From Bacteroidota bacterium (GTDB taxonomy: Bacteria > Bacteroidota > Bacteroidia > NS11-12g > UBA955): a DNA stretch of 64,000 nucleotides. Under the pieces are notes generated by a model, which worked only from the letters and a program-made list of their open reading frames with translations, ran no database searches and was not told where the DNA came from. Made by a program: the position numbers and the translations under genes. The stretch is taken from assembly GCA_947496065.1 (NCBI GenBank), contig CANMBF010000001.1:134018-198017 (forward strand), given 5' to 3'. Position 1 is the first letter of the stretch, and each line of letters opens with the position of its first letter. Positions 951 to 23,397 of this stretch are shown piece after piece.

Positions 951-991
951 GGGTGTTTATTAGTTTTATCTAGCAGTAGCAATTACTGTAT

Positions 992-999
992 TAACTTTG
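992..999 (+). promoter_or_regulatory. Candidate -7 box for neuC
   Basis: TAACTTTG matches the Bacteroidota -7 consensus TAnnTTTG and lies 32 bp before the neuC ATG. No clean TTTG -33 box is seen, only a T-rich stretch around 964-969, so this is a weak call. Confidence 0.38.
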
Positions 1000-1031
1000 T
1001 AAAAAATTTATTTCCTAAGGGGAAACAAAAA

Positions 1032-2156
1032 ATGGGTAATAAAAAAATTGTTTTTTTAACTGGTACAAGAGCTGATTTCGGAAAATTAAAATCGCTCATA
1101 GAGGTGGTTTTAAAAGAACCAAATTTGGAGGCGCATATTTTCGCAACTGGTATGCACATGGACTCTAAATATGGCAAAACCGTTGATGAAATTAAAAAAT
1201 GTGGTTACCCCAATATATTCAGCTATATCAACCACCATGAATATGACAGCATGGACACCATCCTATCAAAAACGATTGATGGATTTTCGGGGTATGTGAA
1301 AGAACTTAAACCCGATTTAATCATCATACATGGCGACAGGGTAGAGGCACTTGCAGGGGCCATTGTAGGTGCTCTAAATAATATTTTAGTAGCGCATATC
1401 GAAGGTGGCGAAGTTTCTGGCACCATTGATGAATTGATTCGACATGCTGTTAGTAAAATGAGCCATGTACATTTTGTTGCCCATGAGAGAGCTAAAATGC
1501 GTTTAATTCAAATGGGCGAAGTGCCAGGCTCCATATTTGTAATTGGTTCTCCTGATGTGGATGTGATGTTGTCGAACAAATTACCTGAATTACAAGTTGT
1601 GAAGGATTATTATGAAATACCTTTCGATGCCTATGCCATGGTGATGTTCCATCCTGTTACAACAGAGTTCGATCAAATTGATGAGCAATCGAAACAATTG
1701 GTAGACGCATTGATTGAATCTGAAAAAAATTATGTGGTGGTATTTCCTAATAACGATATGGGAAATGATTATATTCTGCGTAGTTTTAAGAAATTTCAGA
1801 ACAATCCTAAGTTTGTAATTTATCCATCACTTCGTTTCGAATATTTTTTAATTTTATTGAAACATGCTGAATTTATTATTGGTAATTCGAGTGCTGGTAT
1901 TCGCGAAGCACCTTATTATGGCGTGCCAACGATTAATATTGGCAGCCGTCAGAATAACCGTTCTTTGGCAAAAGATATTATCAATACCGACTATAGTAAT
2001 GAATCTATCTTAGCAGGTATTTTGAAGGCGGAAACGTTAAAATTAGAACCTATTCAGCATTTTGGTGATGGTAAGAGTGACGAACTATTTATATCTGAAT
2101 TGAAGAAGGAATCATTTTGGCAAATTCCAAAACAGAAGTATTTTCTTGATATTTAA
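1032..2156 (+). CDS. neuC: UDP-GlcNAc 2-epimerase (hydrolysing), NeuC/LegG type
   Basis: This enzyme epimerises and hydrolyses a UDP-N-acetylated hexose to the free manno sugar (ManNAc or 2,4-diacetamido-6-deoxymannose) that NeuB uses. The N-terminus KKIVFLTGTRADFGKLKSLI is the classic NeuC/LegG signature. AHIEGGEVSGTIDELIRHAVSKMSHVHF and GNSSAGIREAPYYGVPTINIG are conserved epimerase-2 blocks. At 374 aa it is full length. The ATG at 1032 is preceded by a likely promoter. Whether the substrate is UDP-GlcNAc or UDP-diNAc-bacillosamine cannot be told from this window. A second, non-hydrolysing epimerase (WecB type) occurs at 12348 in the same locus. Confidence 0.93.
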   Translation: MGNKKIVFLTGTRADFGKLKSLIEVVLKEPNLEAHIFATGMHMDSKYGKTVDEIKKCGYPNIFSYINHHEYDSMDTILSKTIDGFSGYVKELKPDLIIIHGDRVEALAGAIVGALNNILVAHIEGGEVSGTIDELIRHAVSKMSHVHFVAHERAKMRLIQMGEVPGSIFVIGSPDVDVMLSNKLPELQVVKDYYEIPFDAYAMVMFHPVTTEFDQIDEQSKQLVDALIESEKNYVVVFPNNDMGNDYILRSFKKFQNNPKFVIYPSLRFEYFLILLKHAEFIIGNSSAGIREAPYYGVPTINIGSRQNNRSLAKDIINTDYSNESILAGILKAETLKLEPIQHFGDGKSDELFISELKKESFWQIPKQKYFLDI

Positions 2157-2164
2157 TAATTGCA

Positions 2165-3496
2165 ATGATTTTAAATAGTCTTTACGTTTTTTGTTACTAC
2201 TTTTTGATGATTGCATCCTATTTTTTGGGAATAGGTAAAAAGTCAAAATTTTATCAGTCTGGCAAAAATCTAGTGGATAGACCACAAGGAAGTCACAGAC
2301 TAATCGATGGCAATAAATTGGGATTCTTGATAATACCTGCATTTTATTACCGCTTGGTTTATTCAATCTTATTTATCCCTAAAAAATTTGTTGTAAATCA
2401 AAAAACCAATGACGTTGCCGTTTACGATGAGGCAAATGATGAAAGTCAACGCTTGGATTTTATTTATAAAATGACGGGTGAGTTGCCATCTATTTATATC
2501 AATAAACAAGAATTATTAAGGTATGAATTTCCTTCCTATGTTAAAATTTCATTGAGTTTAGTATATTTTGTTTATTCACTCTTTTTACTACCATTTACCC
2601 TTTCCAAAAATCGACAATTATATGCACTACTATTACACGAGATTTACGAACTTTCAGTTTTACTTCTTATTTGTAAAAAGTATAAAATAAGAAAATTATA
2701 TTATTCATGTATTTTCGAGAAGGATTCTAATTCGTCAGCTTATATTCTGCAGAAAAAGGGTTTATATATTATTAAAAATCCTTCGGAAGACCCATTATAT
2801 TTTCACAACAAATTTATTATTGCAGATGAGTTAGGTATATGTAATGATTACCAATGGGAGGAATTGGAAGCATACAAGTCTACAATTTTTGTCAATAAAT
2901 TTCAACAATGGCTTCCAGAGCAATATGATGTTATACTCAATAAAAGTGTAGAAAAAAAGGCAGAAATCAAAAATCACACAATAGGGTATTATTCTGGTGC
3001 ATCTTGGCTAAACGCATTTTTAAAAAATAATCTAACAACCGATGCTTATAACCCCTACAAAGCAGAAGAAGAATTAGAGTTAAATCTCGCAAATTTTTTG
3101 AAGGAACATAACAATTATCATTTAAAAGTATATTTGCATCCATTGGAAAAAAGAGCGCAATACATTCACTTAAGTATTGAGCACTATGATAGTAAATGCA
3201 ATGGGTTAAAGTATGAAATTGCTGATGTAAAAAGACCAAATTACGAGATGTTCAATGAATGTGAAATTGGTGTGACAGTATTTTCTGGAATTATGATATA
3301 TCGATTTTATCAGGGCCTAAAAGGTATTTATTACAATCCATATTTTCCAAATTACCCTATAAAGGGCAGTACCTTTGATAGTATAAGTGCAAAAAATGAA
3401 GAACAATTGTCGCGTCTCATTTTAGAGGTTATTGAATTAGAAGACGCTGAATTTAAAAATATAAAATTAAATGGGAAGTACAATAAATCTTTTTAA
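2165..3496 (+). CDS. Unknown polysaccharide-locus protein, candidate nonulosonyl/sialyltransferase
   Basis: I do not recognise this 443-aa protein with certainty. It starts 8 bp after neuC, so it is probably cotranscribed. There is a hydrophobic N-terminus (residues about 5-22) and another hydrophobic stretch around 118-140. The C-terminal third contains YLHPLEKR (around residue 325), then EIGVTVFSGIMIYRFYQG and a segment ending in a short amphipathic tail. A His-Pro motif followed by a Ser-containing loop is the layout of bacterial sialyltransferases of GT38/GT52/GT80 type, which carry HP and S(S/T) motifs. I see no clear D/E-D/E-G motif. The position beside neuB/neuC makes a transferase for the nonulosonic acid the best guess, but this is inference. 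Confidence 0.5.
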   Translation: MILNSLYVFCYYFLMIASYFLGIGKKSKFYQSGKNLVDRPQGSHRLIDGNKLGFLIIPAFYYRLVYSILFIPKKFVVNQKTNDVAVYDEANDESQRLDFIYKMTGELPSIYINKQELLRYEFPSYVKISLSLVYFVYSLFLLPFTLSKNRQLYALLLHEIYELSVLLLICKKYKIRKLYYSCIFEKDSNSSAYILQKKGLYIIKNPSEDPLYFHNKFIIADELGICNDYQWEELEAYKSTIFVNKFQQWLPEQYDVILNKSVEKKAEIKNHTIGYYSGASWLNAFLKNNLTTDAYNPYKAEEELELNLANFLKEHNNYHLKVYLHPLEKRAQYIHLSIEHYDSKCNGLKYEIADVKRPNYEMFNECEIGVTVFSGIMIYRFYQGLKGIYYNPYFPNYPIKGSTFDSISAKNEEQLSRLILEVIELEDAEFKNIKLNGKYNKSF

Positions 3497-3549
3497 GGTT
3501 GATTGAATGGAAGTATCTCCGAACATTTAACATTTTAGTTGCATAGCAG

Positions 3550-4758
3550 ATGCAAAAAAAAACCCTAATAATTCTAACACACTGTTTCCCTAATAGAACT
3601 GGAGAAGAGTTTTTGATTGACGAGATTGAGACTACTAGTTTGTATTTTGATAAAATCTTAATAGTTCCTGTCAATTCAAAATTATCGGAGTCCTCACTTT
3701 ATGATTTGCCGCGTAATGTTGAAGTTCAAGCTTTAAATCCGTCATTAAAAGCAAATTCAAGTCCTCAGATGTTTAAACAAATCTTGAAATTACTATTCAA
3801 TGAATTTTTTAGAATACCAAATAAGAGGCTCTTTTTCGCAACATTGAAATTCAATTTAGCACTACTAAAACAATGTTATTTAAAAGCGCTTTTTGTTAAA
3901 TCATTAATTAGTATTCCAAAACAAACAATTGTATATGCTTATTGGACAGATGATTTGGCTACTATAGCTGGATTCACTAAGGCCTTAACACCTGAAATTT
4001 CCTTTGTTTCGCGCGCACACGGTTTTGATGTTTTTGAAGAACAATCGAAGTTTAAGCATATTTTTTTCAGAAGTTTTCAATTGGATAAAATTAACAAATT
4101 ATTGTCTGTTTCTGAGGTAGGCGCAAACCATTTAAAAGTAAAAAATAAGACATACGCAAAAAAAATAGGGTGCAGCTACCTTGGAATTAAAAGCAACGCT
4201 CAATTTGCTTTCGACAATAGCGCATGTATAAGATTAGTTACTTGCTCAAGAATTAGATCTATTAAGCGTTTAGAGTTGTTAGTTGAGGCCTTAAAATTGA
4301 TAGAACAGACTGTAGAATGGGAGGTGATTGGCGATGGCGAAGATTTAGAAAAATTAAAAGGCTTAACAAAGTCATTACCGGCCAATATCAAAGTTAATTT
4401 TCATGGTAATATGACGACCCATCAAATTCATGAATTTTATGCTTCAAACCATTTTGATTTTTTGGTAAGTTTAAGTTCTAGCGAGGGATTGCCAGTAAGT
4501 ATGATGGAGGCAATCAGTCATGGAATCCCTATTCTTTCGACCGATGTTGGTGGTTGTAAGGAAATAGTTACGGAAGTAACAGGGCTATTAATTCCTGCCA
4601 ATTTCCAATTAGAAGATTTGGCCCAATTAATTAAAAATTGTAAAGTAAATGCCTTTAATTCAATAAAAAGTCGAAAAGAAATCATTCAATTTTGGGAATC
4701 TAAATTTAAGTCAGAAATAAATTACAAGCAATTTGCGGAAACAATATTGCAGTTTTAA
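3550..4758 (+). CDS. GT4-family glycosyltransferase
   Basis: This is a GT-B retaining glycosyltransferase of 402 aa that adds a sugar to the growing oligosaccharide at the inner membrane face. The N-terminal domain has a short Rossmann start (KTLIILTHCFPNRTGEEF). The C-terminal GT1 domain holds TCSRIRSIKRLELLVEAL, EVIGDGEDLEKL and the E(x7)E nucleotide-sugar motif in SEGLPVSMMEAISHG followed by DVGGCKEIV. It is separated from the preceding gene by 53 bp and followed by a 235-bp AT-rich gap before hisH. The donor and acceptor cannot be predicted. Confidence 0.88.
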   Translation: MQKKTLIILTHCFPNRTGEEFLIDEIETTSLYFDKILIVPVNSKLSESSLYDLPRNVEVQALNPSLKANSSPQMFKQILKLLFNEFFRIPNKRLFFATLKFNLALLKQCYLKALFVKSLISIPKQTIVYAYWTDDLATIAGFTKALTPEISFVSRAHGFDVFEEQSKFKHIFFRSFQLDKINKLLSVSEVGANHLKVKNKTYAKKIGCSYLGIKSNAQFAFDNSACIRLVTCSRIRSIKRLELLVEALKLIEQTVEWEVIGDGEDLEKLKGLTKSLPANIKVNFHGNMTTHQIHEFYASNHFDFLVSLSSSEGLPVSMMEAISHGIPILSTDVGGCKEIVTEVTGLLIPANFQLEDLAQLIKNCKVNAFNSIKSRKEIIQFWESKFKSEINYKQFAETILQF

Positions 4759-4957
4759 TTTTGGATGGATTTGTAAAGCTTATTGACAAAAGTTTATAGT
4801 TGATTTTGAAACAAGTTTAAGTATTTTTTCTAAGCGATATTTAGGCCTTAAACTAATTTTCAAGTATTTTTCTTTTGAGGGTTGTAATATGTTAATTTTG
4901 TTAATTATTAACTTTTATTTAATTTGTTATTAAAAGTAATTTAAAAAGGAAATACGC

Positions 4958-4965
4958 TAGATTTG
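4958..4965 (+). promoter_or_regulatory. Candidate -7 box for the hisH-hisF-wbpG group
   Basis: TAGATTTG matches TAnnTTTG and lies 28 bp before the hisH ATG at 4994, at the end of a 235-bp AT-rich gap (4759-4993) in which I see no gene. No TTTG lies at the expected -33 distance; the nearest is at 4923-4926, which is too far. Confidence 0.35.
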
Positions 4966-4993
4966 AATAGTATAAAAATATTTGTATTTGAAA

Positions 4994-5608
4994 ATGATAA
5001 CTATTGTTAATTATGGTTTAGGCAATATTGGTAGCATTGAAAATATGCTAAAGAAAATTGGCGTAACAGAGATATTGGTTTCTAGTAATCATGAAGAAAT
5101 ATTAAAATCTGATAAACTCATTTTACCAGGCGTTGGCTCCTTTGATGCAGGTATGGAAAAAATTAATTCTTCAGGTTTAGTTAATGTTTTGAATGAGGCT
5201 GTATTAATAAATAAAGTTCCAATTTTGGGAATTTGTTTAGGAATGCAACTCATGACTAAGCATAGTGAAGAAGGTGAAAAAAGTGGATTTGGATGGGTGG
5301 ATGCTGAAACTGTTAAGTTTGATTTTAATAAGCAGAATATTAAGGTGCCTCATATGGGCTGGAATTATGTCGATATTTTAGATAATGGTCTTAAAGCAAA
5401 CTTACCTCCAAATCCTAAATTCTATTTTGTTCACTCTTACTTCGTTAAATGTAATAACATTAAAGATATAATGATAACGTGCGATTATGAGGGAAAATTT
5501 GTCGCAGGGTTTAAAAAAGACAATGTAATGGGTGTACAATTTCATCCTGAAAAAAGTCATAAGCATGGGATGGCATTTTTTAGATACTTTGTAGAGAATA
5601 ATTTTTAG
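4994..5608 (+). CDS. hisH: HisH-like glutaminase of sugar amidotransferase system
   Basis: This class I glutamine amidotransferase releases ammonia from glutamine. The catalytic nucleophile is C81 in GICLGMQLM, and the His/Glu pair is H184 and E186 in GVQFHPEKS. The frame also allows a TTG start at 4982, but the family begins MITIVNYGLGNIGS, so the ATG at 4994 is preferred (204 aa). It is followed by a HisF paralogue and a WbpG/PseA-type amidotransferase with no other his genes nearby. It therefore most likely serves nucleotide-sugar amidation rather than histidine synthesis, as HisH2/HisF2/WbpG do in Pseudomonas O-antigen loci. Confidence 0.88.
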   Translation: MITIVNYGLGNIGSIENMLKKIGVTEILVSSNHEEILKSDKLILPGVGSFDAGMEKINSSGLVNVLNEAVLINKVPILGICLGMQLMTKHSEEGEKSGFGWVDAETVKFDFNKQNIKVPHMGWNYVDILDNGLKANLPPNPKFYFVHSYFVKCNNIKDIMITCDYEGKFVAGFKKDNVMGVQFHPEKSHKHGMAFFRYFVENNF

Positions 5609-5623
5609 AATTCAATTAAAATA

Positions 5624-6388
5624 ATGTTACAAGCGCGCGTCATACCATGTCTGCAAATAATTGAAGGAGGACTTTATAAAACCACCCAGTTTAAAAATCC
5701 GAAATATATAGGCGATCCAATAAACGCTGTAAAAATTTTTAATGAAAAGGAGGTTGATGAACTCATGGTTTTGGATATTACAGCTTCTAAATCCAACAGA
5801 GAGCCTAATTATGAGTTACTGAAACAATTGGCAAGTGAGTGTTTTATGCCTTTGTCGTATGGTGGTGGTATAAATAACTTTAAACAAGCGTCACAATTAT
5901 TTGAATTGGGTATTGAAAAAATAGCAATCAATACTGCTGCTATTACGAATTCTAAGCTGATTTCAGAAATAGTTCAAGTTTATGGTAATCAAAGCATTAT
6001 TGTAAGCATAGATATAAAGAAGAATTTTTTCGGTAAACCTTGTATTTATACAAATAATGGAACAAAAAATACAGGACTTGATTTATTTGTATACCTTGAA
6101 AAATTAGAGTCACTAGGTGTAGGTGAATTATTAATAACAGACATTGATAGGGAAGGTAAGTGGAGTGGTTATAATATAGATCTACTTAAATCGATTACCG
6201 ATAAGGTTAAAATGCCAGTATTAATTAACGGAGGCTGTGGCAATATTGATCATATTTCTGACGCAATAAATATTGGAAAGGCAAATGGAGCAGTAGTTGG
6301 AAGCATGGCTGTTTATCAAAAACAGGGAATGGGCGTTTTAATTAGCTTCCCTAAGTATTCAGATTTAGAAAAAGTATTAAATCTATGA
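5624..6388 (+). CDS. hisF: HisF-like cyclase-fold partner of sugar amidotransferase
   Basis: This is a 254-aa TIM barrel of the HisF family, starting MLQARVIPCL. It carries LDITASKSNRE, YGGGINN, SINTAAI-like (AINTAAI), VSIDIKK and NGGCGN blocks that align with HisF. The catalytic Asp of true HisF at position 11 (PCLDV) is Gln here (PCLQI), while the second Asp (SIDIK) is kept. Loss of the first acid, and the phrase FKNPKYIGDPINAVKIFNEKEVDEL, are typical of the sugar-modifying HisF2 group, which probably channels HisH ammonia to the next gene product. It is 15 bp after hisH and 39 bp before the WbpG-like gene. Confidence 0.87.
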   Translation: MLQARVIPCLQIIEGGLYKTTQFKNPKYIGDPINAVKIFNEKEVDELMVLDITASKSNREPNYELLKQLASECFMPLSYGGGINNFKQASQLFELGIEKIAINTAAITNSKLISEIVQVYGNQSIIVSIDIKKNFFGKPCIYTNNGTKNTGLDLFVYLEKLESLGVGELLITDIDREGKWSGYNIDLLKSITDKVKMPVLINGGCGNIDHISDAINIGKANGAVVGSMAVYQKQGMGVLISFPKYSDLEKVLNL

Positions 6389-6427
6389 TTTCGGAGTTAA
6401 ATTAGAAGGTTTTAAATTAAAATATTT

Positions 6428-7579
6428 ATGAAGGAAATTAAAGAAAATAGTATAAGAGAGTGTACAAATTGTGTCCTAGATACACATGATGACCCATCTA
6501 TGACATTTGATGAAAATGGAGTTTGTAATTATTGCAGAACTTATCACAAAACATATGTTTTAAATGGTCTTACGAATGATCAAAAGAAGGACATATTGGA
6601 AGGTAAATTAGCTGCGATAAAAAAATCAAAAAAGGGCAAATATGACACAATTCTTGGTGTTTCTGGAGGTGTCGACAGTACGTATGCAGCATATATTTGC
6701 AAGCAATTAGGCTTGAATCCTTTGTTGGTACATTTTGATAATGGATGGAATAGTGAGTTAGCGGTTAGTAATATTGAGCAAATTACAAAAATTACAGGAT
6801 TCGATTTATATACATATGTGGTAGATTGGCCGGAGTTTAGGGATTTGCAACTTGCCTACATCAAAGCTTCGGTGTTAGATTGGGAAATTCCAACAGATCA
6901 TGGATTTTATGCCATTTTACATCATTTAGCAAATAAATTTAATATAAAGTATATTTTAACAGGACATAACCATCAAACCGAGGCTATTTTACCTAAGACA
7001 ATGCGCCATAACAAAATGGATGTCGCCAATATAATTGATATTCATAAGCATTTTGGTAAAATTCAATTGAAAACCGTTCCATTACTTAATTTTTGGAGAT
7101 ATAATTATTACCAAAGTGTAAAAAAAATTGAAAGGTTTAATCTGCTTGAATATTTAGATGAGTATGACAAGGAAAAAGCAAAACAACTAATTACAGAGAA
7201 AATGGGATGGAGAGATTACGGAGGAAAACATTATGAGTCTATATTTACACGCTTCTACCAAGGTTATGCACTAAAGGAAAAATTTGGATTTGAAAAAAGA
7301 AAAGCACATTTAGCAAATCTAATTTGTAGTGGTCAAATGACTAAAAAAGAGGCACTAATAGAATTGTCTACGCCGTTATATGATCAGGTAGTTTATGCGA
7401 CAGATAGGGAGTTTGTTTTAAAGAAGTTAGGATTAAGTGAAGAACAATTTAAATCTATCATGTCTGAGCCTGTGCGCTCACATTTGGAGTTCAAATCTTA
7501 CATGACCGGTTTGTACCTTAAACATGAAAAATTCATGCGTTCCATTAAACCCATCACCAAATTAATAAAATTCAGATAA
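6428..7579 (+). CDS. N-acetyl sugar amidotransferase, WbpG/PseA family
   Basis: This is an ATP-dependent PP-loop enzyme that turns an N-acetyl group of a nucleotide sugar or nonulosonate into an acetamidino group, using ammonia delivered by HisH/HisF. Two CxxC pairs (C12, C15 and C33, C36) form a likely zinc site. The PP-loop is SGGVDS at residues 79-84. Downstream blocks are HFDNGWNSELA, ILTGHNHQTEA and MGWRDYGGKHYES, all typical of the family. It is 383 aa, full length. Its TAA stop overlaps the ATG of the asparagine-synthase-like gene (TAATG), suggesting translational coupling. The substrate is unknown: with neuB/neuC nearby, legionaminate is possible, but diacetamido-uronates are the classic WbpG substrate. 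Confidence 0.9.
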   Translation: MKEIKENSIRECTNCVLDTHDDPSMTFDENGVCNYCRTYHKTYVLNGLTNDQKKDILEGKLAAIKKSKKGKYDTILGVSGGVDSTYAAYICKQLGLNPLLVHFDNGWNSELAVSNIEQITKITGFDLYTYVVDWPEFRDLQLAYIKASVLDWEIPTDHGFYAILHHLANKFNIKYILTGHNHQTEAILPKTMRHNKMDVANIIDIHKHFGKIQLKTVPLLNFWRYNYYQSVKKIERFNLLEYLDEYDKEKAKQLITEKMGWRDYGGKHYESIFTRFYQGYALKEKFGFEKRKAHLANLICSGQMTKKEALIELSTPLYDQVVYATDREFVLKKLGLSEEQFKSIMSEPVRSHLEFKSYMTGLYLKHEKFMRSIKPITKLIKFR

Positions 7580-14512: not shown

Positions 14513-15703
14513 TTGAAAATCCTTTACTACTCACCTCATCCTACCCATGATATTGTCAGTGAGGTAGGTTATGCCACGCATCAACGCGAGGTAATTAATG
14601 CGCTCAGAAAATTAGGGCATACAGTATTACCTGTCATCATGGGTGGTACAGAAAAAGGTAATTTGTCTTCTGCTGGAATTCCAGCATCAAAAAATAGCAT
14701 CAAAGCCCGCATCAAAAAATTTATACCGCGTTTTATATGGACATCCCTCAAAGATTTTCAATTGATGAAACACGATGTATCAGCGGCCCAAAAATTGGAA
14801 GAAGCAATCATTGCTTTTCAACCAGATTTAATTTATGAGCGTTCGGAATATTTGCAAGACAGAGGTGTTGCCATTATTAAAAAACATAGAATTAAGTATT
14901 TTTTAGAAATTAATGCACCTTTTGCTGAAGAGATGAAAGGTTTCGAAGGCTACTCCTTTTGGCACAGACTGGCGCATAAAAAGGAACAAAATAAGAATGA
15001 CAATGCCGATCAAATTTTTGTTGTTTCATCGGCACTTAAAACATTTATTGAAAACACTTATCAGGTGCCTTCCTCAAAGATTTTTGTTCAACCTAACTGT
15101 ATTAATTTTGACAATGTGCTTATCGATGAAAACAGAATAAGTGAAATAAAAATTAATTACCAATTGGAAGGTAAAAAGGTGATTGGTTTTGTAGGCTCTA
15201 TTTTTCCTCACCATGGGGTCGATATTTTGATTGATGCTTTTGCAATTGTCGAAAGAGATTTTCCTAATGCCTTACTATTGATTGTTGGGGATGGAAGTAT
15301 ACTAGCAGCATTGAAAGCAAGAGTAAATTCTAACGGTATTGAGCGCAAGGTTTGTTTTGCTGGTAAGCACGATCACAAAGCGGTTTTTAATTTTATAGCT
15401 ACAATGGATATATGTGTTATGGCCAAATCTAATTGGTATGGTTCTCCTATTAAAATTTTTGAATATGGTGCGATGCACAAACCAATAATTGCCCCAAACA
15501 CAGGCCCGGTGAAAGATGTTATGCAAAACAGTGTGAATGGCTTAGTGGTTGATATGAACAAGGAAAAAATGGCTGAAGCCATTGCCAATTTACTTAAAAA
15601 TGATGATTTTGGTAAAACCATTTCCGATAAATTTTATGCAGATATTGCTCAACATTATACTTGGGAAATGGCCGCGCAAAACATTCTTAAAAAAGTAAAC
15701 TAA
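14513..15703 (+). CDS. GT4-family glycosyltransferase
   Basis: This 396-aa GT-B enzyme starts at a TTG (KILYYSPHPTHD). It carries QADQIFVVSSALK-type (NADQIFVVSSALK) and FVQPNCINF junction motifs. The C-terminal domain has GFVGSIFPHHGVDILIDAF, LLIVGDGS, CVMAKSNWYGSPIKIFEYGAMHKPIIA and NTGPVKDVM. SPIKIFEYGA is the functional equivalent of the E(x7)E motif (one acid retained in FEYG). It follows the unknown protein by 6 bp and precedes the FkbH-like gene by 33 bp. Specificity is unknown. Confidence 0.87.
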   Translation: MKILYYSPHPTHDIVSEVGYATHQREVINALRKLGHTVLPVIMGGTEKGNLSSAGIPASKNSIKARIKKFIPRFIWTSLKDFQLMKHDVSAAQKLEEAIIAFQPDLIYERSEYLQDRGVAIIKKHRIKYFLEINAPFAEEMKGFEGYSFWHRLAHKKEQNKNDNADQIFVVSSALKTFIENTYQVPSSKIFVQPNCINFDNVLIDENRISEIKINYQLEGKKVIGFVGSIFPHHGVDILIDAFAIVERDFPNALLLIVGDGSILAALKARVNSNGIERKVCFAGKHDHKAVFNFIATMDICVMAKSNWYGSPIKIFEYGAMHKPIIAPNTGPVKDVMQNSVNGLVVDMNKEKMAEAIANLLKNDDFGKTISDKFYADIAQHYTWEMAAQNILKKVN

Positions 15704-15736: not shown

Positions 15737-17458
15737 ATGAAAACATTTTCTCAACTTAAAAAAAATCTTAAGCAAGATTTTAGTGGTCTAAAAACCATTA
15801 AAGTAGCGTTATTAGGCGATTCGGCCACTCAATTTTTAGTTCAAGCCTTGCGGGCAACTGGTTACGAGGCTGGTTATGATTTACAAATTTGGGAGGCAGA
15901 TTTTAATCAAATTGAACGTCAGGTTTTTGATCCAACTTCTGAGTTATTTGAGTTCAATCCTGAACTTGTTATTTTATTTCATTCCTCCCACAAGTTATTA
16001 GCGAAATACAATAAGTCTAAACCAGCGCATTACCAGTTGTTGGCAGAGAATAGATTGGAGGAAATAAATTCAATTATTTCGGCTATTAACAGCCAATTAA
16101 ACGCTAAAATAATTTATTATAATTATTCTGAAATTAATGATTCAGTATTTGGAAATTATGCCAATAAACTAGAAGTATCATTTCAATTTCAACTTCGTAA
16201 ACTCAATTATGAGTTAATGAAATTATCTACCCAAGTAGCTAATCTCTATGTATGCGACTTATCTACTTTACAGAATCAGTTCGGCAAAATGGTGAATTTT
16301 CAAACATCAGTATACATCAATACAGAAATGGTATTGAGCATCGATGTCTTGCCATTTGTTGCCAAAGAAACGATTGATGTCATTGCCGCCATGAATGGTC
16401 ATTCTAAAAAATGTGTTATTTTGGATTTAGATAATACGGTATGGGGTGGCATTATTGGAGACGATGGCATTGAAAACATACAAATTGGCAGTCTAGGTAT
16501 CGGAAAAGCATTTACCGAGTTTCAGTATTGGATTAAGAAGCTTAAAAACCGAGGAATAATTATAGCAGTTTGTAGTAAAAATACCGAATCAGTTGCAAAG
16601 GAACCATTCGAAAAACATCCAGATATGGTGTTGCGACTCGATGATATCGCTGTTTTTATTGCCAATTGGGAGAATAAAGCAGACAATATTCGACATATAC
16701 AAAGCATACTCAATATAGGATTTGATTCCATGGTATTTTTAGACGACAATCCATTCGAGAGAAATATTGTGAGAGAGAATATTCCTGGTATTACTGTACC
16801 CGAATTACCTGTAGACCCTGCAGATTATCTCGAATATTTATATACACTTAATTTATTCGAAACCATCTCATACTCTAACGAAGATACAGAAAGAACAAAG
16901 TTATATCAGGTAGAGGCCCAAAGAACAATTCTACAACAAAAATTTACAAACGAGGATGAATTCCTTGAAAGCCTCAATATGCTTTCTTTGGTTGAACCAT
17001 TTAATAAATTTAATATACCCCGTGTAGCCCAATTATCCCAAAGGTCGAATCAGTTTAATTTGCGTACTATTCGCTATACAGAGTCTGATATCGAATTACT
17101 TTCCAATTCCGATAATTTCTATACATTTGCATTCACTTTAGAGGATAAGTTTGGCGACAATGGATTGATATGTGTTGTGATTATGAAGAAGGAAACTGAG
17201 AAAAAAGTATTTATTGATACTTGGTTCATGAGTTGCAGAGTATTGAAAAGAGGAATGGAACATTTTGTACTAAACACAATTGCTAATTTTGCAGTAGAAA
17301 AGGGTTTTGAAATGATACAAGGTGAATACCTTCCAACCGCAAAAAATGAAATGGTAAAAGACCATTACCAAAATCTGGGTTTTGAGAATAGGGATAACAC
17401 TTGGATATTGGATTTGAAAAGCTATAAAATCAAAAAAGTATTTATAAATTTAAAATAA
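15737..17458 (+). CDS. FkbH-like HAD-IIIC protein (glyceryl-ACP-type enzyme)
   Basis: This 573-aa protein has the three-part FkbH layout. An N-terminal SGNH-like region starts at VALLGDSATQ. A HAD phosphatase domain has the DxDxT nucleophile D230-L-D232-N-T234 in VILDLDNTVWGG, plus CSKNTES and FLDDNPFER. The C-terminal domain is GNAT-like (MSCRVLKRGMEHFVL, NEMVKDHYQNLGF). In methoxymalonyl-ACP pathways FkbH loads a glyceryl unit derived from 1,3-bisphosphoglycerate onto an ACP. An ACP gene lies two genes downstream, which fits. The stop overlaps the start of the methyltransferase gene (TAATG). The exact acyl group made here is unknown. Confidence 0.87.
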   Translation: MKTFSQLKKNLKQDFSGLKTIKVALLGDSATQFLVQALRATGYEAGYDLQIWEADFNQIERQVFDPTSELFEFNPELVILFHSSHKLLAKYNKSKPAHYQLLAENRLEEINSIISAINSQLNAKIIYYNYSEINDSVFGNYANKLEVSFQFQLRKLNYELMKLSTQVANLYVCDLSTLQNQFGKMVNFQTSVYINTEMVLSIDVLPFVAKETIDVIAAMNGHSKKCVILDLDNTVWGGIIGDDGIENIQIGSLGIGKAFTEFQYWIKKLKNRGIIIAVCSKNTESVAKEPFEKHPDMVLRLDDIAVFIANWENKADNIRHIQSILNIGFDSMVFLDDNPFERNIVRENIPGITVPELPVDPADYLEYLYTLNLFETISYSNEDTERTKLYQVEAQRTILQQKFTNEDEFLESLNMLSLVEPFNKFNIPRVAQLSQRSNQFNLRTIRYTESDIELLSNSDNFYTFAFTLEDKFGDNGLICVVIMKKETEKKVFIDTWFMSCRVLKRGMEHFVLNTIANFAVEKGFEMIQGEYLPTAKNEMVKDHYQNLGFENRDNTWILDLKSYKIKKVFINLK

Positions 17459-18366
17459 TGCAGGAACACATCAATTATATAGTTCAACGGATAGAGAGTT
17501 TAAACCCTCTGCATGGAAAAAAGATAAAAAAGAACATGACTTTTTTTGACGAGGCCTATGAAATAACTTTCAGTGGCTTTTTGAAAAAGTACATTACTTA
17601 TCTTGAAACAGAAAATAAAACACTGGATTATGCCATTGATTGCTATTTAAGCATGATAGCTGATATGAATGTTGAGGCAGTAGATTTTTTTAGGACCGGG
17701 AAGTACTCTAGCAGCACATTTCAAGAAGTCAACGATAGGGTTTACGCCAAACCTGGAATCATGGAATATTACATGCATGGTTTGATCATGTCACAGTTTT
17801 TATGGAAGCATCATTACCAATTATTTTCGAGCTACATAGAACAACTCCCCAATTATGCAAGCAAGATAGGAAGTTATCTTGAAATTGGCGCAGGACATGG
17901 TCTTTACCTTTCCAGGTCACTTGAAATATTAAATAATGAGACCACATTTGTTGTAGTAGATATAAGTCCAACGTCTATTGATTTAGCCAAGCGCTTTACG
18001 GATAGTGACCGTGTTAATTTTCATTTAATGGATGTATTTGATTTTAGCATTGAAACAAAGTTCGATTTTATTACAATGGGTGAAGTATTGGAACATGTTG
18101 AGGAGCCTTTAAAGTTATTGACAAAGTTGAATGACTTGCTCAATGAGGATGGTACAGTTTTTATTACTACACCCACCAACGCACCTACAATCGACCATCT
18201 CTACCTTTTCAATAATGTCACGGAGATACAAGCGCTTATTAGGTCAGCAGGGTTTGAAATTGAATCAGAAATGTCTTTTTTATCCGAGGATGTTTCTCCG
18301 GAAAAGGCTGAAAAATTTAAGGTAAGCACATTATATGGAGCTTTTCTTAAAAAAACAAAGAAGTGA
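17458..18366 (+). CDS. SAM-dependent class I methyltransferase
   Basis: This 302-aa protein has a class I Rossmann methyltransferase core in its second half: SAM-binding motif I YLEIGAGHGLYLSRSLE, acidic motif II VVVDISPTS, motif FITMGEVLEHVEEP, and LNEDGTVFITTPTNAP. The first about 135 residues are a helical region of unknown role. It is translationally coupled to the FkbH-like gene (1-bp overlap) and 35 bp before an ACP gene. In FkbG-type systems a methyltransferase O-methylates the ACP-bound glyceryl chain, so that role is reasonable, but methylation of a sugar is equally possible. Confidence 0.82.
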   Translation: MQEHINYIVQRIESLNPLHGKKIKKNMTFFDEAYEITFSGFLKKYITYLETENKTLDYAIDCYLSMIADMNVEAVDFFRTGKYSSSTFQEVNDRVYAKPGIMEYYMHGLIMSQFLWKHHYQLFSSYIEQLPNYASKIGSYLEIGAGHGLYLSRSLEILNNETTFVVVDISPTSIDLAKRFTDSDRVNFHLMDVFDFSIETKFDFITMGEVLEHVEEPLKLLTKLNDLLNEDGTVFITTPTNAPTIDHLYLFNNVTEIQALIRSAGFEIESEMSFLSEDVSPEKAEKFKVSTLYGAFLKKTKK

Positions 18367-18401
18367 AAATCATAATAAAAAAATAATCAAAAAATAAAAT
18401 C

Positions 18402-18644
18402 ATGGAAAAAGAGAAAGCACTCGAAAAAGTAAATAAAATATTTATTGATGTACTTGACAATGAAGAAATTGTTTTAAGCGATGCTACCACTGCAAATGAT
18501 GTAGAAGACTGGGACTCACTAACACACATACAATTGGTAGTAGCTATAGAAAGAGAATTTAATCTGAGGTTTACCTCAATGGAAATACAAAGCTGGACAA
18601 ATGTTGGAGAGATGATTGATTGTATTATATCAAAGAATAAATGA
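18402..18644 (+). CDS. Acyl carrier protein
   Basis: This is an 80-aa acidic ACP. The phosphopantetheine site is S39 in EDWDSLTHIQLV; the DSL triad and helix II are intact. The C-terminal helix EMIDCIISKNK ends the fold. It is not the fatty-acid AcpP, whose gene would sit with fabF; its neighbours are FkbH-like, MaoC and SDR genes, so it probably carries a specialised acyl group for polysaccharide decoration. The TGA stop overlaps the ATG of the MaoC gene (ATGA). Confidence 0.9.
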   Translation: MEKEKALEKVNKIFIDVLDNEEIVLSDATTANDVEDWDSLTHIQLVVAIEREFNLRFTSMEIQSWTNVGEMIDCIISKNK

Positions 18645-19039
18645 TCTTTAAGGAAGGGGATAAGTTTATAGAAAAATTCCATCTATCAGAAAAAATATAT
18701 GATGGATTTATTACCCTTTTCAAAGATAGAAATCCACTGCATACAGATGAGCAATTTGCCATTGACAACGGATTTAAAGGAAGGGTTATGCATGGGAATA
18801 TCCTGAATGGGTTTATTTCCTTTTTCATTGGTGAATGCCTTCCAGTAAAAAATGTTATCATTCATTTACAGGAGATACAGTTTAAAAATCCTGTTTATTT
18901 GGATGACAGATTAGATTTTTTTGCTGAAGTGAGTGGTGTTTTTGAATCAGTTAATACAGTTGAATTCAAATTCAATTTTAAAAACATTGAAACGAAAACG
19001 GTAGCAAAAGGTAAAATTCAAATAGGCGTTTTCAAATGA
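18641..19039 (+). CDS. MaoC-like (R)-specific enoyl hydratase/dehydratase
   Basis: This 132-aa single hot-dog-fold protein carries the MaoC hydratase-2 motif with catalytic D29 and H34 in FKDRNPLHTDEQFA, followed by GRVMHGNILNGF. Such enzymes interconvert enoyl and (R)-3-hydroxyacyl thioesters. It overlaps both neighbours by 4 bp (ATGA), so it is tightly coupled to the ACP and the SDR. With them it would form a small set for making or reducing a hydroxyacyl-ACP. No ketosynthase is present in the window, so chain extension would have to be supplied from elsewhere. Confidence 0.85.
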   Translation: MIFKEGDKFIEKFHLSEKIYDGFITLFKDRNPLHTDEQFAIDNGFKGRVMHGNILNGFISFFIGECLPVKNVIIHLQEIQFKNPVYLDDRLDFFAEVSGVFESVNTVEFKFNFKNIETKTVAKGKIQIGVFK

Positions 19040-19758
19040 ATATATTAATCACAGGCGGAGCATCTGGACTAGGTGGGGCAATAACAAGGAAACTTGCTGA
19101 GGACGCTCGTCATAAAGTTTATTTTACCTATAGCAAATCAAAAGCGGAAGCAGAAAAAATAGCAACTGATTTCAGTAACACAGTCCCAGTAAAATGTGAC
19201 TTTGGGGATGCTAATGAACTTAGTTCATTGATAGAAAACATTGCAAGTTTTGATCTAGATATTTTAATAAACAACGCCTATAATGGGGATTTTATAAAGA
19301 CACATTTTCATAAAACACCTTCCGAGGATTTTTTAAATGATTTTAGGGATAATATAATTCCTACGATTGAGATTACTCAAAAGGCCATTAATGGATTTCG
19401 TAAAAAAAGAATGGGAAAGATAATTACGATTTTAACTTCAGGCCTATCAGAGAACCCACCTATAGGCGCATCTGTATACATTGCCAATAAGGCCTACTTG
19501 GAAAAGTTAACCAAAGTATGGGCAACAGAAAATGCAGCATTTCATATTTCATCTAATTCCATTTCCCCTTCATTTATGCAGACAAACCTCACCTCAAAAG
19601 TGGATGAAAGGGTGGTTGAACAATTGCGTGAGAAACACCCCTTGAAGCAATTACTCTCTGTAGAGGAGGTAGCTAATACAGTGGCGTTTTTTGTTGATGC
19701 AACACCACAAATAAACGGGGTTGATATAACAATCAATGCTGCAACTTCAATTAAATAA
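19036..19758 (+). CDS. SDR-family oxidoreductase (FabG-like)
   Basis: This 240-aa short-chain dehydrogenase/reductase has the nucleotide loop TGGASGLGG (residues 6-14), the LINNA motif and the catalytic triad S135, Y148 and K152 in TSG...SVYIANKAY. The C-terminus SVEEVANTVAFFVDA...INGVDITINAA is typical of FabG-like reductases. It most likely reduces a ketoacyl-ACP or sugar-linked keto group with NAD(P)H. The start overlaps the MaoC stop by 4 bp and MBOAT begins 3 bp downstream. Confidence 0.87.
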   Translation: MNILITGGASGLGGAITRKLAEDARHKVYFTYSKSKAEAEKIATDFSNTVPVKCDFGDANELSSLIENIASFDLDILINNAYNGDFIKTHFHKTPSEDFLNDFRDNIIPTIEITQKAINGFRKKRMGKIITILTSGLSENPPIGASVYIANKAYLEKLTKVWATENAAFHISSNSISPSFMQTNLTSKVDERVVEQLREKHPLKQLLSVEEVANTVAFFVDATPQINGVDITINAATSIK

Positions 19759-19761
19759 AAA

Positions 19762-21216
19762 ATGTTATTTAATTCACTCGAATTTTTAGGATTCTTTTCG
19801 ATCTTCTTTTTTATTTACTGGTTAGTATTTAAAAAGCATCTAATGGCACAAAATTTATTTTTGTTGTTGGGAAGCTATGCCTTTTATGTTTGGTGGGACT
19901 GGCGCTTTTTGTTACTTATTGTAGGCAGTTCAATTCTCAACTATATTTTAGGTATTCAAATTCAAAAAAGGGAAAATATTAAAACCAAACGATGGCTAGT
20001 TGGATTATCAATTTTACATGGCATTGGTTTACTTATACTGTTTAAATATGCCGATTTCTTCATTACCTCATTCGTCGACTTAAGTAGGTCTTTAGGATTT
20101 AACGCAAACCTTCATACCTTAAATTTAATTTTACCCTTAGGCATTAGTTTTTATACATTTCGAACCCTAAGCTATATTCTTGATATTTATAAAAACAAAA
20201 TACAAGCAACAACTAACTGGGTTACTTTTTTTTCTTATGTAGCGTTTTTTCCATCACTTATTTCTGGACCAATAGATAGAGCATCAGCACTTATTCCTCA
20301 ACTTGAAAAGAAGCGAAATTTCGACCCTTCACAAATGTCTGATGCATTGCGACAAATTCTTTGGGGCTTATTTAAAAAAATGGTGATTGCAGATAATTGT
20401 GCAGCACTTACCAATCAGATATTTGATAATTACTTAACCTATCCGGCTAGCTCATTGGTGTTAGGTGCATTCTTCTTTACAATCCAAGTGTATGCAGATT
20501 TTTCAGGCTATTCGGACATGGCAATAGGCGTTGCTAGATTATTGGGCTTTAACGTGAGTAGAAATTTCAATTATCCATTCTTTTCTCAAACCATTGCTGA
20601 GTTCTGGCAAAAGTGGCATATCTCACTTACCTCCTGGATGACCGATTATGTATTTGCCCCACTCAATATCGCTTTTAGGGACTATGGAAATTTAGGTTTA
20701 ATACTGGCTATTCTTCTTAATTTTTTGGCTGTTGGCATATGGCATGGCGCCAATTGGACCTTCTTGTTTTATGGTTTCATACAAGCGTGTTTGTTTGTTC
20801 CAATGATACTTAGAGGGACTTTGTTTAAGAAAAAAAAGTTTCAGAAAGACAGAGTCTGGCCAACTTTTGGTGAATTAAAAAACATGCTTATTACATTTAT
20901 TCTGATAATGCTTTCGAATGTTATTTTTAGAGTTGATAAAATTTCACAAGGATTTGACTATTTAAAAAGAATCGTTTCAACCTCCTTATTTTCAATCCCA
21001 GAAATTACAAATAACAGAACAAATGCCATTATTGCATTAATTTTTATTGCCCTACTAATTCTAGTGGAGTGGCTACAACGTCACAAAGAACATGGTTTAG
21101 AAATAAGCTATATTAAAAAAATGCCGTTGAGATTTGGAATTTATTACGCAGTAATTTTCTGCATCATTTACTTCGGTGCTTCAGGCAATAACCAATTCAT
21201 TTATTTTAAATTCTAA
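19762..21216 (+). CDS. MBOAT-family O-acyltransferase (AlgI/DltB-like)
   Basis: This 484-aa polytopic inner-membrane protein moves acyl groups across the membrane onto extracytoplasmic polysaccharide. It starts LFNSLEFLGFFSIFFFIYWLVF, the usual opening of AlgI-like proteins. Further blocks are LPLGISFYTFRTLSYILDIYK, SFFPSLISGPIDR-like (AFFPSLISGPIDR), FSGYSDMAIGVARLLGF, FWQKWHISLTSWM and the catalytic-His segment AVGIWHGANWTFLFYGFIQA. It lies directly after ACP, MaoC and SDR genes and before an SGNH partner. The acyl donor is therefore probably the specialised ACP rather than acetyl-CoA. Confidence 0.93.
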   Translation: MLFNSLEFLGFFSIFFFIYWLVFKKHLMAQNLFLLLGSYAFYVWWDWRFLLLIVGSSILNYILGIQIQKRENIKTKRWLVGLSILHGIGLLILFKYADFFITSFVDLSRSLGFNANLHTLNLILPLGISFYTFRTLSYILDIYKNKIQATTNWVTFFSYVAFFPSLISGPIDRASALIPQLEKKRNFDPSQMSDALRQILWGLFKKMVIADNCAALTNQIFDNYLTYPASSLVLGAFFFTIQVYADFSGYSDMAIGVARLLGFNVSRNFNYPFFSQTIAEFWQKWHISLTSWMTDYVFAPLNIAFRDYGNLGLILAILLNFLAVGIWHGANWTFLFYGFIQACLFVPMILRGTLFKKKKFQKDRVWPTFGELKNMLITFILIMLSNVIFRVDKISQGFDYLKRIVSTSLFSIPEITNNRTNAIIALIFIALLILVEWLQRHKEHGLEISYIKKMPLRFGIYYAVIFCIIYFGASGNNQFIYFKF

Positions 21217-21220
21217 ATCA

Positions 21221-22303
21221 ATGAAAAAGTTCATTATAAAATTACTTTACATGTTGCCAATACCGCTTTTAATTATTAGCATCAACTATAAAGAAGATCC
21301 AGCGAATATTTTTAGAAAAGGACCCTACGAGAAAGGAATTGTTAGATATCTCAATGAAGGAAAGAACGTGACCAATGTAACCAACTACGATGAAAGGCTT
21401 TTACAGAGGTATTTTATAACAGATAATAAAAATTGTCCAGATGTTATTGTATTAGGTTCAAGCAGAGTAATGCAACTTGGTAAGCGCTTTTTTCCTAATG
21501 AAAATTTAATGAACAATGGCGTAAGTGGTGCCACAATTGAAGACTTATTAGCTATTTACGATTTATATGAAAATAAGGGCTGTAACATTAAGAAAGTAAG
21601 AATAGGTTTAGATCCCTATTTTTTTAACGAGAACAACGACCAATCACGCTGGAAAGTGCTCACCAAGGAATACAACGAGATGTTAGATAAGCTTGGTTTA
21701 ACAGCATATGCCGAGAAACCATTTGAGGATCAGTCCCTGTATGTTAAATACAACCAACTTTGGTCACTTTCCTATTTTAAAACTTCATGGAGTTATTTTA
21801 TACGCGGTGTTGATGTTCATTACCAACCTGTGAATTCAACTATGAATAAAGAATTTACCAAGGTTGTAGATGGTTCTATTGTGTATGGGGAAAGTTCTAG
21901 AAATTCAGCTCTCGAAATAGTGAATGGCTATGCCACGCAATCAATTACTGAAACACCATTGTATTCGATGGGCGAATTCAAGCAATTATCTCCAAAGTAT
22001 CAAACCATTTTCATACAGTTTATAGAGTATCTCCAAAAGAAAAACATAGAAGTAGAATTTTTTATTTCTCCATACCATCCTATTGTATACGATTTTATTA
22101 AAAAGAGCAAAGATTATCAAATTGCTTTTGAGGTTGAAAAATACTTCAATCAATTCGCTTCAGAGCATCATATAAAATTAATTGGTACGTATTCACCGTA
22201 TGTTTATCAATTTAAAGATTCAGCTTTCAACGATGGCTTCCATTGCAAAGAATTAGCCCTAAAAAAGGTATTTGAACAACAAGCCAAAGATTCCATAAAA
22301 TGA
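21221..22303 (+). CDS. SGNH-fold partner of MBOAT acyltransferase (AlgJ/DltD-like role)
   Basis: This 360-aa protein has one N-terminal membrane anchor (FIIKLLYMLPIPLLIIS) and would face the periplasm. SGNH/GDSL features are block I VIVLGSSRVMQ (S80/S81), block II-like NNGVSGA, and the block V Asp/His pair D338 and H341 in DGFHC. Such proteins work with an MBOAT protein to pass the acyl group to the polysaccharide. The frame is open from 21176, but that start would lie inside the MBOAT gene; the ATG at 21221 (KKFIIKLL), 4 bp after the MBOAT stop, is preferred. The stop overlaps the next ATG. Confidence 0.78.
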   Translation: MKKFIIKLLYMLPIPLLIISINYKEDPANIFRKGPYEKGIVRYLNEGKNVTNVTNYDERLLQRYFITDNKNCPDVIVLGSSRVMQLGKRFFPNENLMNNGVSGATIEDLLAIYDLYENKGCNIKKVRIGLDPYFFNENNDQSRWKVLTKEYNEMLDKLGLTAYAEKPFEDQSLYVKYNQLWSLSYFKTSWSYFIRGVDVHYQPVNSTMNKEFTKVVDGSIVYGESSRNSALEIVNGYATQSITETPLYSMGEFKQLSPKYQTIFIQFIEYLQKKNIEVEFFISPYHPIVYDFIKKSKDYQIAFEVEKYFNQFASEHHIKLIGTYSPYVYQFKDSAFNDGFHCKELALKKVFEQQAKDSIK

Positions 22304-23397
22304 GAATTGCATTACTTGCCGATGGCATATGGCCAGATACCATTGGAGGTATGCAAAAACACTCCTTTTATTTGGCAAAATACTTGTCCCTAAATGGCAT
22401 AAAGGTCGATTTATTTTATTGTGCCAAAGATGCTGCATTGGTAGTTAAACAATTTAATTTTGATGAAACTTTAAACATTCGTTTTTTTAAGGTTGATTTT
22501 CCAAGGGTGAAAATTCCTTTTCCTGGTCATTATGTTTATAATTCCTATCGCTATTCTAAAAGTTTGTATCAGTTGTATATTCAACAGAGACCTTATGATT
22601 TTACCTATTCACAAGGGTTTACAGGCTGGTATTTTGTAAAAAAAGGAGTTTCCATTGGAAGCAATTTACATGGTTTAGAAATGTATCAAAAGGCCTTTGG
22701 TTTAAAATCTAAATTGGCCCAATTGCTATTGCGGATTCCTGCTAATACCATCATTAAAAAAAGCGCCATTAGCTTTTCATTAGGTGGACAACTTACCCAA
22801 ATTTTAGAATCAAAAGGCGCCAAATTAATAAAGGAAACACCTATCGGGATTGGTGAGGAATGGTTATCTAATCAACCTATTCACAACGAAAAAATACATT
22901 TTGTATTTGTAGGCAGAAATGAAAAAAGAAAGGGACTTGATTTACTTTTCAAGGTGCTTCAAGACATTGACCCTTCTTCCTTTGTTTTTCATTTTATTGG
23001 GATCCATTCACAGGATAATCTTGCCAACAAAAGTCATTTAATATTTCATGGAGAATTACGTGATGCGAATCAAATCAAATCCATTGTATCCCAATGCGAT
23101 TGTTTGGTCTGTCCAAGTATTGCCGAAGGTATGCCAACCGTAATATTAGAAGCCATGGCCATGAATTTAGCAATATTGGCCACCGATACAGGCGCCACGC
23201 GCTTGCTTGTGGACAAGGAAAATGGTCTTTTAATTGAAACCGATAATGCCAATCAATTATTAAATGGCCTAAATTATTTCTGTTCCATTTCTAAAGAAGC
23301 GCTCTATCAACTAAAATATTCATCTTATAAAAAAGTATCTGAAAAATACTTATGGCCTGTGTCTATACAGGTCACAATCAATGCGCTAAAATCATAG
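22300..23397 (+). CDS. GT4-family glycosyltransferase
   Basis: This 365-aa GT-B enzyme starts RIALLADGIWPDTIGGMQKHSFYLAKYL, with the typical GG loop. The C-terminal donor domain has HFVFVGRNEKRKGLDLLFKVL, FIGIHSQ, and CDCLVCPSIAEGMPTVILEAMAMNLAILATDTGAT with the E(x7)E motif in EGMPTVILE. The start overlaps the SGNH gene by 4 bp. The 3' end overlaps the convergent wzy-like gene by 20 bp. Confidence 0.9.
   Translation: MRIALLADGIWPDTIGGMQKHSFYLAKYLSLNGIKVDLFYCAKDAALVVKQFNFDETLNIRFFKVDFPRVKIPFPGHYVYNSYRYSKSLYQLYIQQRPYDFTYSQGFTGWYFVKKGVSIGSNLHGLEMYQKAFGLKSKLAQLLLRIPANTIIKKSAISFSLGGQLTQILESKGAKLIKETPIGIGEEWLSNQPIHNEKIHFVFVGRNEKRKGLDLLFKVLQDIDPSSFVFHFIGIHSQDNLANKSHLIFHGELRDANQIKSIVSQCDCLVCPSIAEGMPTVILEAMAMNLAILATDTGATRLLVDKENGLLIETDNANQLLNGLNYFCSISKEALYQLKYSSYKKVSEKYLWPVSIQVTINALKS

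Follow-up and report, generated by a model that had tools for sequence, protein, structure and literature searches.

A seven-gene cassette of a Bacteroidota bacterium that probably builds an acyl group on its own acyl carrier protein and delivers it to surface glycan by a Dlt-like route

Seven genes at positions 15737 to 22303 of a 64,000-bp stretch of a Bacteroidota contig (CANMBF010000001.1; the whole stretch is hereafter called the window) very probably assemble a small, custom-made acid on an acyl carrier protein (ACP) of their own and attach it to surface sugars. In order, they encode an FkbH-like protein, a methyltransferase (MT), the ACP, a MaoC-type protein, a short-chain dehydrogenase/reductase (SDR), a membrane-bound O-acyltransferase (MBOAT), and an SGNH acyltransferase. 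Taken as a whole, the system is probably a Dlt-like, carrier-protein-fed acylation pathway, equipped with its own acyl synthesis and a different loader. An initial annotation of the same DNA had proposed a private ACP thioester as the acyl donor, and this proposal was upheld by the co-conservation of the genes, the phylogeny of the MBOAT, the loss of a PLGG motif from MBOATs with carrier neighbours, and the resemblance to DltB and DltD. The predicted role of an ACP thioester as donor for the MBOAT is well supported by these comparisons of sequence. The seven open reading frames are all intact and on the plus strand, at the positions noted earlier, and their family names and tight spacing agree with the earlier description: neighbouring genes overlap by 1 bp (FkbH/MT) or 4 bp (ACP/MaoC and MaoC/SDR), or are separated by gaps of 35 bp (MT-ACP), 3 bp (SDR-MBOAT), and 4 bp (MBOAT-SGNH). 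Six of them score above the curated Pfam or NCBIfam cut-offs, the SGNH gene being the exception.

Linkage of these genes was examined in one-genome-per-species contigs, with FkbH similarity as the sole criterion for choosing loci. The 80 loci obtained were nearly all from Bacteroidota, including Flavobacterium, Pedobacter, Mucilaginibacter, and Chryseobacterium species, among which culturable hosts are available for testing the model; one record was labelled Methylobacter and one Deltaproteobacteria. The FkbH-ACP core was present in 80/80 loci, and an MBOAT lay in the same run in at least 63, an AT3 acyltransferase in one, and a ketoacyl-ACP synthase III (KAS III) in five, while 11 loci, some on cut contigs, carried none of these three in the run. 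Since selection by FkbH alone still yielded both the ACP and the MBOAT at these frequencies, the linkage is not due to chance. FkbH_N exceeded its cut-off in 11 of 390 evenly sampled Bacteroidota genomes; for eight of the ten other than that of the window the locus was opened, and the ACP adjoined FkbH in all eight and an MBOAT was found in three, two of the eight being repeats of loci in the 80-locus scan.

Between the core and the acceptor gene, optional modules were observed, namely MaoC (32 loci), SDR (31 loci), a VOC protein of the Glyoxalase_4, methylmalonyl-CoA epimerase type (18 loci), methyltransferases (16 loci), or none, with a TylF-type methyltransferase and a radical SAM protein as rare additions. 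The minimal machine, FkbH-ACP-MBOAT without any tailoring gene, was represented by 20 loci. The exact seven-gene set, which was found only in the window when compared with the 80 FkbH-chosen loci, is not a conserved unit but one of the combinations built on a modular FkbH-ACP-MBOAT-SGNH core. Some VOC matches, obtained with a profile holding a VOC/AMP-ligase fusion (L057), were discarded, as they read as AMP-ligases once the fusion was removed. In the record labelled Deltaproteobacteria (L063:12346-13968), a radical SAM protein replaces the SDR between MaoC and MBOAT.

The MBOAT gene (19762..21216; 55.3 bits against a cut-off of 27) encodes the protein predicted to carry the acyl group across the membrane, and its relatives of solved structure are DltB proteins (6bug, 8jem). 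Its position among other MBOATs was analysed in a tree of 155 proteins, 85 of them from random genomes of the class; the top-scoring background MBOATs were skewed to the generic type, so the background was widened by 40 loci of lower score. A single clade of 51 (support 0.999) held 46 of the 55 MBOATs labelled at that stage as carrier-adjacent, and most of the other nine fell within a small second clade. The label of carrier adjacency required 6 changes on the tree, whereas none of 300 shuffles needed fewer than 36. Two loci that have no FkbH but an ACP immediately ahead of the MBOAT (L150 and L137) had their MBOATs placed beside those of the cassettes, and the MBOAT of L143, a locus that combines an AMP-ligase with a GNAT-ACP fusion, took a basal position in the main clade.

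The sharpest column difference was detected at residues 302-306, where generic MBOATs carry PLGG[NS][RK] and cassette MBOATs PLxIxFR[DN]. The GG pair was found in none of 50 cassette MBOATs, in contrast to all seven second MBOATs of the same loci. In random genomes, an ACP or AMP-ligase gene lay within 2.5 kb of 0/72 GG and 6/13 non-GG MBOATs (p=4e-6), one of the six (L141) being assigned by a weak ligase match alone, and among all 155 MBOATs membership in a carrier operon was 0/85 for GG and 63/70 for non-GG proteins. By phmmer alignment, the segment of residues 298-307 (FAPLNIAFRD; 20653..20682, plus strand) corresponds to helix HC of DltB, whose residues Met302, Val305, Ile306, and Met309 make contacts with DltC, the carrier protein (PMC11035591). 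We propose this segment as the site of ACP docking.

The MBOAT and SGNH proteins could instead form an ordinary acetyl-CoA-dependent O-acetyltransferase, the FkbH-ACP-tailoring genes acylating a cytoplasmic sugar and lying adjacent by chance. Such an arrangement is improbable. It would agree with the use of acyl-CoA by other MBOAT-SGNH pairs (PMC12148441), with the di-O-methylglyceric acid on pseudaminic acid of Campylobacter jejuni, whose locus includes the FkbH-domain gene Cj1302, with NeuB and other sugar genes in the window, and with the 11 FkbH loci that carry no acceptor gene of the three types in the run; the 20 loci in which FkbH-ACP is followed by MBOAT without tailoring genes, the ACP-MBOAT pairs existing without FkbH (L150, L137, and L187), and the separate clades of cassette MBOATs, which do not have the PLGG kept by second MBOATs of the same loci, all argue against it.

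Several points weigh against an ACP donor. Among the 70 non-GG MBOATs, seven had no carrier gene in view, and six of the 63 counted as carrier-associated were re-labelled after inspection of the motif, each being the sole MBOAT of an FkbH-ACP run but located upstream of FkbH. A second DltB alignment shifts the docking segment by a few residues, so the local match is uncertain, and clustering of ACP-adjacent MBOATs on the tree can also reflect joint inheritance of the cassette. The C-terminal hexapeptide was rejected as a marker of ACP donors, because it is carried by nearly all Bacteroidota MBOATs examined. When a DltB fragment was included, the tree placed it among background MBOATs, away from the cassette clade, and therefore the likeness of the docking segment is neither explained nor backed by close kinship.

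Two loci of related composition were also observed. L143:430-5192, from a random Bacteroidota genome, encodes an AMP-ligase, a GNAT-ACP fusion, an MBOAT without PLGG, and an SGNH protein, and appears to be carrier-fed with a Dlt-like loader. In L187:2452-10700, a GDSL/SGNH-ACP-MBOAT set occurs twice in succession, and a methyltransferase belonging to the cassette family comes next; no FkbH was visible there.

For the transfer itself, both the C-terminal F-x-Y-x-x-F hexapeptide and the conserved His of PatAB-type MBOATs are present in the cassette MBOAT, and H286 is conserved in 71/72 and H328, Tyr481, and Phe484 in 72/72 proteins. The hexapeptide forms an acyl-Tyr in PatA and DltX (PMC12148441), and the one found here by translation (FIYFKF; 21196..21213, plus strand), of the same motif as that of PatA, is proposed to be an acyl-Tyr shuttle. 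Judging from these motifs, the ACP would dock at the DltB-like segment of the MBOAT and the acyl group would likely pass to the tyrosine of FIYFKF. The last gene (21221..22303, ATG start at 21221; a longer GTG frame begins at 21176) encodes an SGNH protein with an N-terminal membrane anchor, for which no Pfam match was obtained. Its AlphaFold model (pLDDT, the model confidence score, 88.8) gave DltD structures as top PDB matches (6pfx, 7dxm, 6o93, and 3bma), followed by SGNH esterases including PatB; DltD ranked first with E=6e-5 and a TM score of about 0.4. The family profile also reached DltD 6o93 (E=0.0023), and G80, S82, and H342 were invariant among 34 relatives. A DltD-like general role, in which the SGNH protein would take the acyl group and esterify the polysaccharide of the surrounding cluster, is held with good confidence.

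As to the loader, the FkbH-like glyceryltransferase/phosphatase (15737..17458) scores 292.9 bits on TIGR01686 (cut-off 146.65) and 246.6 bits on FkbH_N PF21211 (cut-off 27), its DLDNT and CSKN motifs are kept across 83 homologues, and its N-terminal part matches PDB 3slr (BF1531) with E=1e-156. FkbH proteins put glyceryl on carrier domains (PMC8949500, PMC4979870). By analogy with this known family chemistry, the first step would likely be the movement of glyceryl from 1,3-bisphosphoglycerate to the private ACP (18402..18644; PP-binding, 28.9 bits against a cut-off of 20.8), of which Ser39 in WDSL is invariant in 80/80 loci. The genome of the window contains one FkbH_N protein, one MaoC protein, five MBOATs, and five phosphopantetheine-binding places; the private ACP is one of the five and is distinct from a probable housekeeping ACP (contig C54) and from large phosphopantetheine-binding proteins of the size of a nonribosomal peptide synthetase (NRPS; contig C22). 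Contig C22 itself carries three such places (L189, L191, and L192) in frames of 1096-1594 aa, which probably belong to an NRPS/polyketide synthase cluster.

The initial annotation inferred a short acyl group, which is supported here, and named glyceryl among the possible final groups, which should be corrected, as MaoC and SDR together suggest reduction, probably to a lactyl-type group. The MaoC-type hot-dog dehydratase/hydratase (18641..19039; 44.1 bits, cut-off 27) retains the D-x-N-P-L-H motif of R-specific hydratases, and in the 390-genome survey its relatives of more than 50% identity were found, beyond the window genome, in one FkbH-cassette genome only. The ketoreductase of SDR type (19036..19758; adh_short_C2, 107.8 bits) has 3-oxoacyl-ACP reductase as its top NCBIfam match, under the cut-off, and its Y148xxxK152 motif is invariant (32/32). 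Glyceryl-ACP carries a beta-hydroxyl, so that the MaoC protein could strip the 3-hydroxyl as water to give the enol of pyruvoyl-ACP, and the SDR could then give lactyl-ACP; on chemical grounds this step has about an even chance of being correct. Such a route would employ both MaoC and SDR without a ketosynthase. Conversion of glyceryl to lactyl reportedly takes place in the bryostatin loading module, although our literature search gave no confirmation of this. We infer the identity of the acyl group, and likewise the acceptor glycan.

The distribution of the modules is consistent with treatment of a three-carbon unit. An SDR stood beside MaoC in 31/32 MaoC loci, and in tests that ignore shared ancestry, VOC was found in 0/32 MaoC loci vs 18/48 others (p=2e-5), MaoC and MT were mutually exclusive over the 80 loci (p=1e-4), and VOC and MT were associated (p=1e-4). 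Co-occurrence of MaoC with SDR and exclusion of VOC are as expected if both treat one C3 unit, the exclusion of a C2 epimerase being accounted for by the SDR setting C2 anew. The window cassette, with MT plus MaoC-SDR, is an exception to this exclusion.

The MT (17458..18366; Methyltransf_23/12) belongs to an FkbH-associated family. All of its 14 relatives, 34-65% identical, lie in FkbH-ACP cassettes, and the family is represented in 3/395 Bacteroidota genomes. The model (pLDDT 92.4) matched chiefly O-methyltransferases but also C-methyltransferases, and this fold search did not distinguish O- from C-methylation. The sampled relatives occur in FkbH cassettes without MaoC-SDR, and thus O-methylation of a hydroxyl, which we regard as probable for the family, is the simplest reading. 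For the present cassette, we tentatively suggest that MT methylates the hydroxyl, most simply at O-2, to yield 2-methoxypropionyl (O-methyl-lactyl)-ACP. As MT and MaoC-SDR were found together in none of the other 80 loci, their joint product has no comparator there, which counts against this assignment.

Alternatively, MaoC and SDR could have as their substrate a ketoacyl or enoyl group made by a different enzyme, for instance a housekeeping KAS III, and a 3-hydroxyacyl group such as 3-hydroxybutyryl would be delivered, FkbH giving a starter or a separate group. We consider this unlikely, even though the SDR is nearest to 3-oxoacyl-ACP reductases and the MaoC protein to R-specific enoyl hydratases. 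KAS III took the place of MBOAT in five loci (L034, L031, L053, L080, and L082), following MaoC-SDR in L034 and L080; this amounts to only 2/32 MaoC loci, and KAS III was accompanied equally often by VOC (two loci), the remaining locus having neither. The same tailoring modules thus occur with KAS III in place of MBOAT, indicating that tailoring does not depend on a ketosynthase, and mutual exclusion of MaoC-SDR and VOC agrees with their being alternative ways of treating a single C3 unit. A distant locus (L188:8301-16476) bears on both views: a single run encodes KAS III, MT, a MaoC-SDR fusion, FkbH, ACP, AMP-ligase, GNAT, and an aminotransferase. The fusion speaks for MaoC and SDR acting one after the other, while KAS III and the AMP-ligase imply that a ketoacyl chain could be the substrate of MaoC-SDR in this locus, a point against the lactyl route. 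L188 itself is probably a pathway for an N-acyl amino sugar with a custom acyl group, and the products of FkbH-ACP cassettes of the KAS III type may be small molecules that are secreted or lipid-like.

Under the lactyl route, relatives exchange the MaoC-SDR and methylation steps for an epimerase-like VOC, other methyltransferases, or nothing, so that one exporter would serve varied small acyl groups. Three congeners (L006-L008) share with the window a collinear set of FkbH, MBOAT, SGNH, and flanking glycosyltransferases at 68-88% identity, but have ACP-MT'-VOC where the window has MT-ACP-MaoC-SDR. The upstream glycosyltransferase (14513..15703, plus strand; Glycos_transf_1) was 75-87% and the downstream glycosyltransferase-like gene (22300..23397, plus strand) 69-81% identical, each in the same place. 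Alignment of these loci suggests a cartridge swap, by which the exporter would be retained and the acyl chemistry altered. On balance we lean slightly to a broader generalization, in which carrier-fed transmembrane acylation machines are widespread in Bacteroidota, cartridges set the acyl group (glyceryl, epimerised, O-methylated, or lactyl-type), the PLGG-less MBOAT clade accepts any ACP load, and recombination of cartridges between flanking genes alters the glycan with the exporter unchanged. If so, cartridge swapping would allow surface chemistry to vary quickly and would be a little-known way of coat change, and the PLGG motif, kept or lost, would provide a sequence rule predicting acyl-CoA- or acyl-ACP-using bacterial MBOATs. 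A whole FkbH-ACP-MaoC-SDR-MBOAT cassette was also observed on a 2.4-Mb contig labelled Methylobacter (L013; FkbH 75% identical), probably as a result of transfer between phyla, unless the bin is mislabelled.

Each step of the proposed pathway has a precedent: a carrier-fed MBOAT is known from Dlt, glyceryl-ACP from FkbH proteins, and a surface glycan bearing methylated glyceric acid from Campylobacter flagellin. With the Dlt pathway of teichoic acid D-alanylation (DltABCDX), the cassette shares a small carrier, which here would feed the MBOAT, a DltD-type SGNH protein, an acyl-Tyr hexapeptide, and, as a putative feature, a carrier-docking segment. Unlike Dlt, which uses the ligase DltA, its loader is FkbH and no AMP-binding gene is present in the cassette; the hexapeptide is fused to the MBOAT in place of a separate microprotein DltX; the MBOAT scores 170.6 bits on the DltB model TIGR04091, for which the cut-off is 375; and the cassette has carrier-tailoring enzymes and lies in a Gram-negative glycan cluster. 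Because of the differences in ligase, DltX, and DltB score, we regard the cassette as Dlt-like but not as a Dlt system. If the model is true, the Dlt principle, from carrier protein through MBOAT to SGNH, reaches Gram-negative surface glycans and acyl groups made in place. The PatA/PatB and AlgI-type O-acetyltransferases likewise combine an MBOAT having a C-terminal hexapeptide with a separate SGNH protein, but PatA takes acetyl-CoA without a carrier protein, and the PLGG[NS][RK] of sampled generic MBOATs is replaced in the cassette protein. In FkbH/OzmB loading of glyceryl-ACP for polyketides, tetronates, and NRPS products, FkbH is accompanied by an adjacent discrete ACP and often by an O-methyltransferase; the cassette differs in handing its product to an MBOAT for export, not to a ketosynthase or NRPS, and in its MaoC, SDR, and VOC modules. 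At the C. jejuni flagellin locus (PMC3068675, PMC7099621), the shared features are an FkbH-domain gene (Cj1302) in the locus and a surface glycan that bears a methylated glyceryl group, but the flagellin papers describe neither an MBOAT route nor a link of Cj1302 to the group. In a literature search, outside which lay most subscription journals, no paper joined FkbH or HAD-IIIC with an MBOAT in glycan acylation. The initial annotation knew of no described system with this set; the combination was indeed absent from the searched literature, but the idea of an ACP in place of acetyl-CoA was known from Dlt, and methylated glyceric acid had a lead in Campylobacter flagellin.

The gene run extends beyond the cassette, as a gap of 33 bp separates the upstream glycosyltransferase gene from FkbH, and the downstream one overlaps SGNH by 4 bp. 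Further upstream are NeuB, two UDP-GlcNAc 2-epimerase-like genes, a HisF-like protein with a PP-loop protein, an asparagine-synthase-like protein, a polysaccharide deacetylase, and a formyltransferase-like protein, and a Wzy_C ligase/polymerase lies downstream on the opposite strand, indicating that the cassette sits within a cell-surface glycan cluster. Housekeeping genes follow from about 30 kb of the window onward. Within the same cluster, the genes at 9-7579 of the window (NeuB, UDP-GlcNAc 2-epimerase, HisF-like, and PP-loop) probably direct synthesis of a nonulosonic acid and an amidino sugar.

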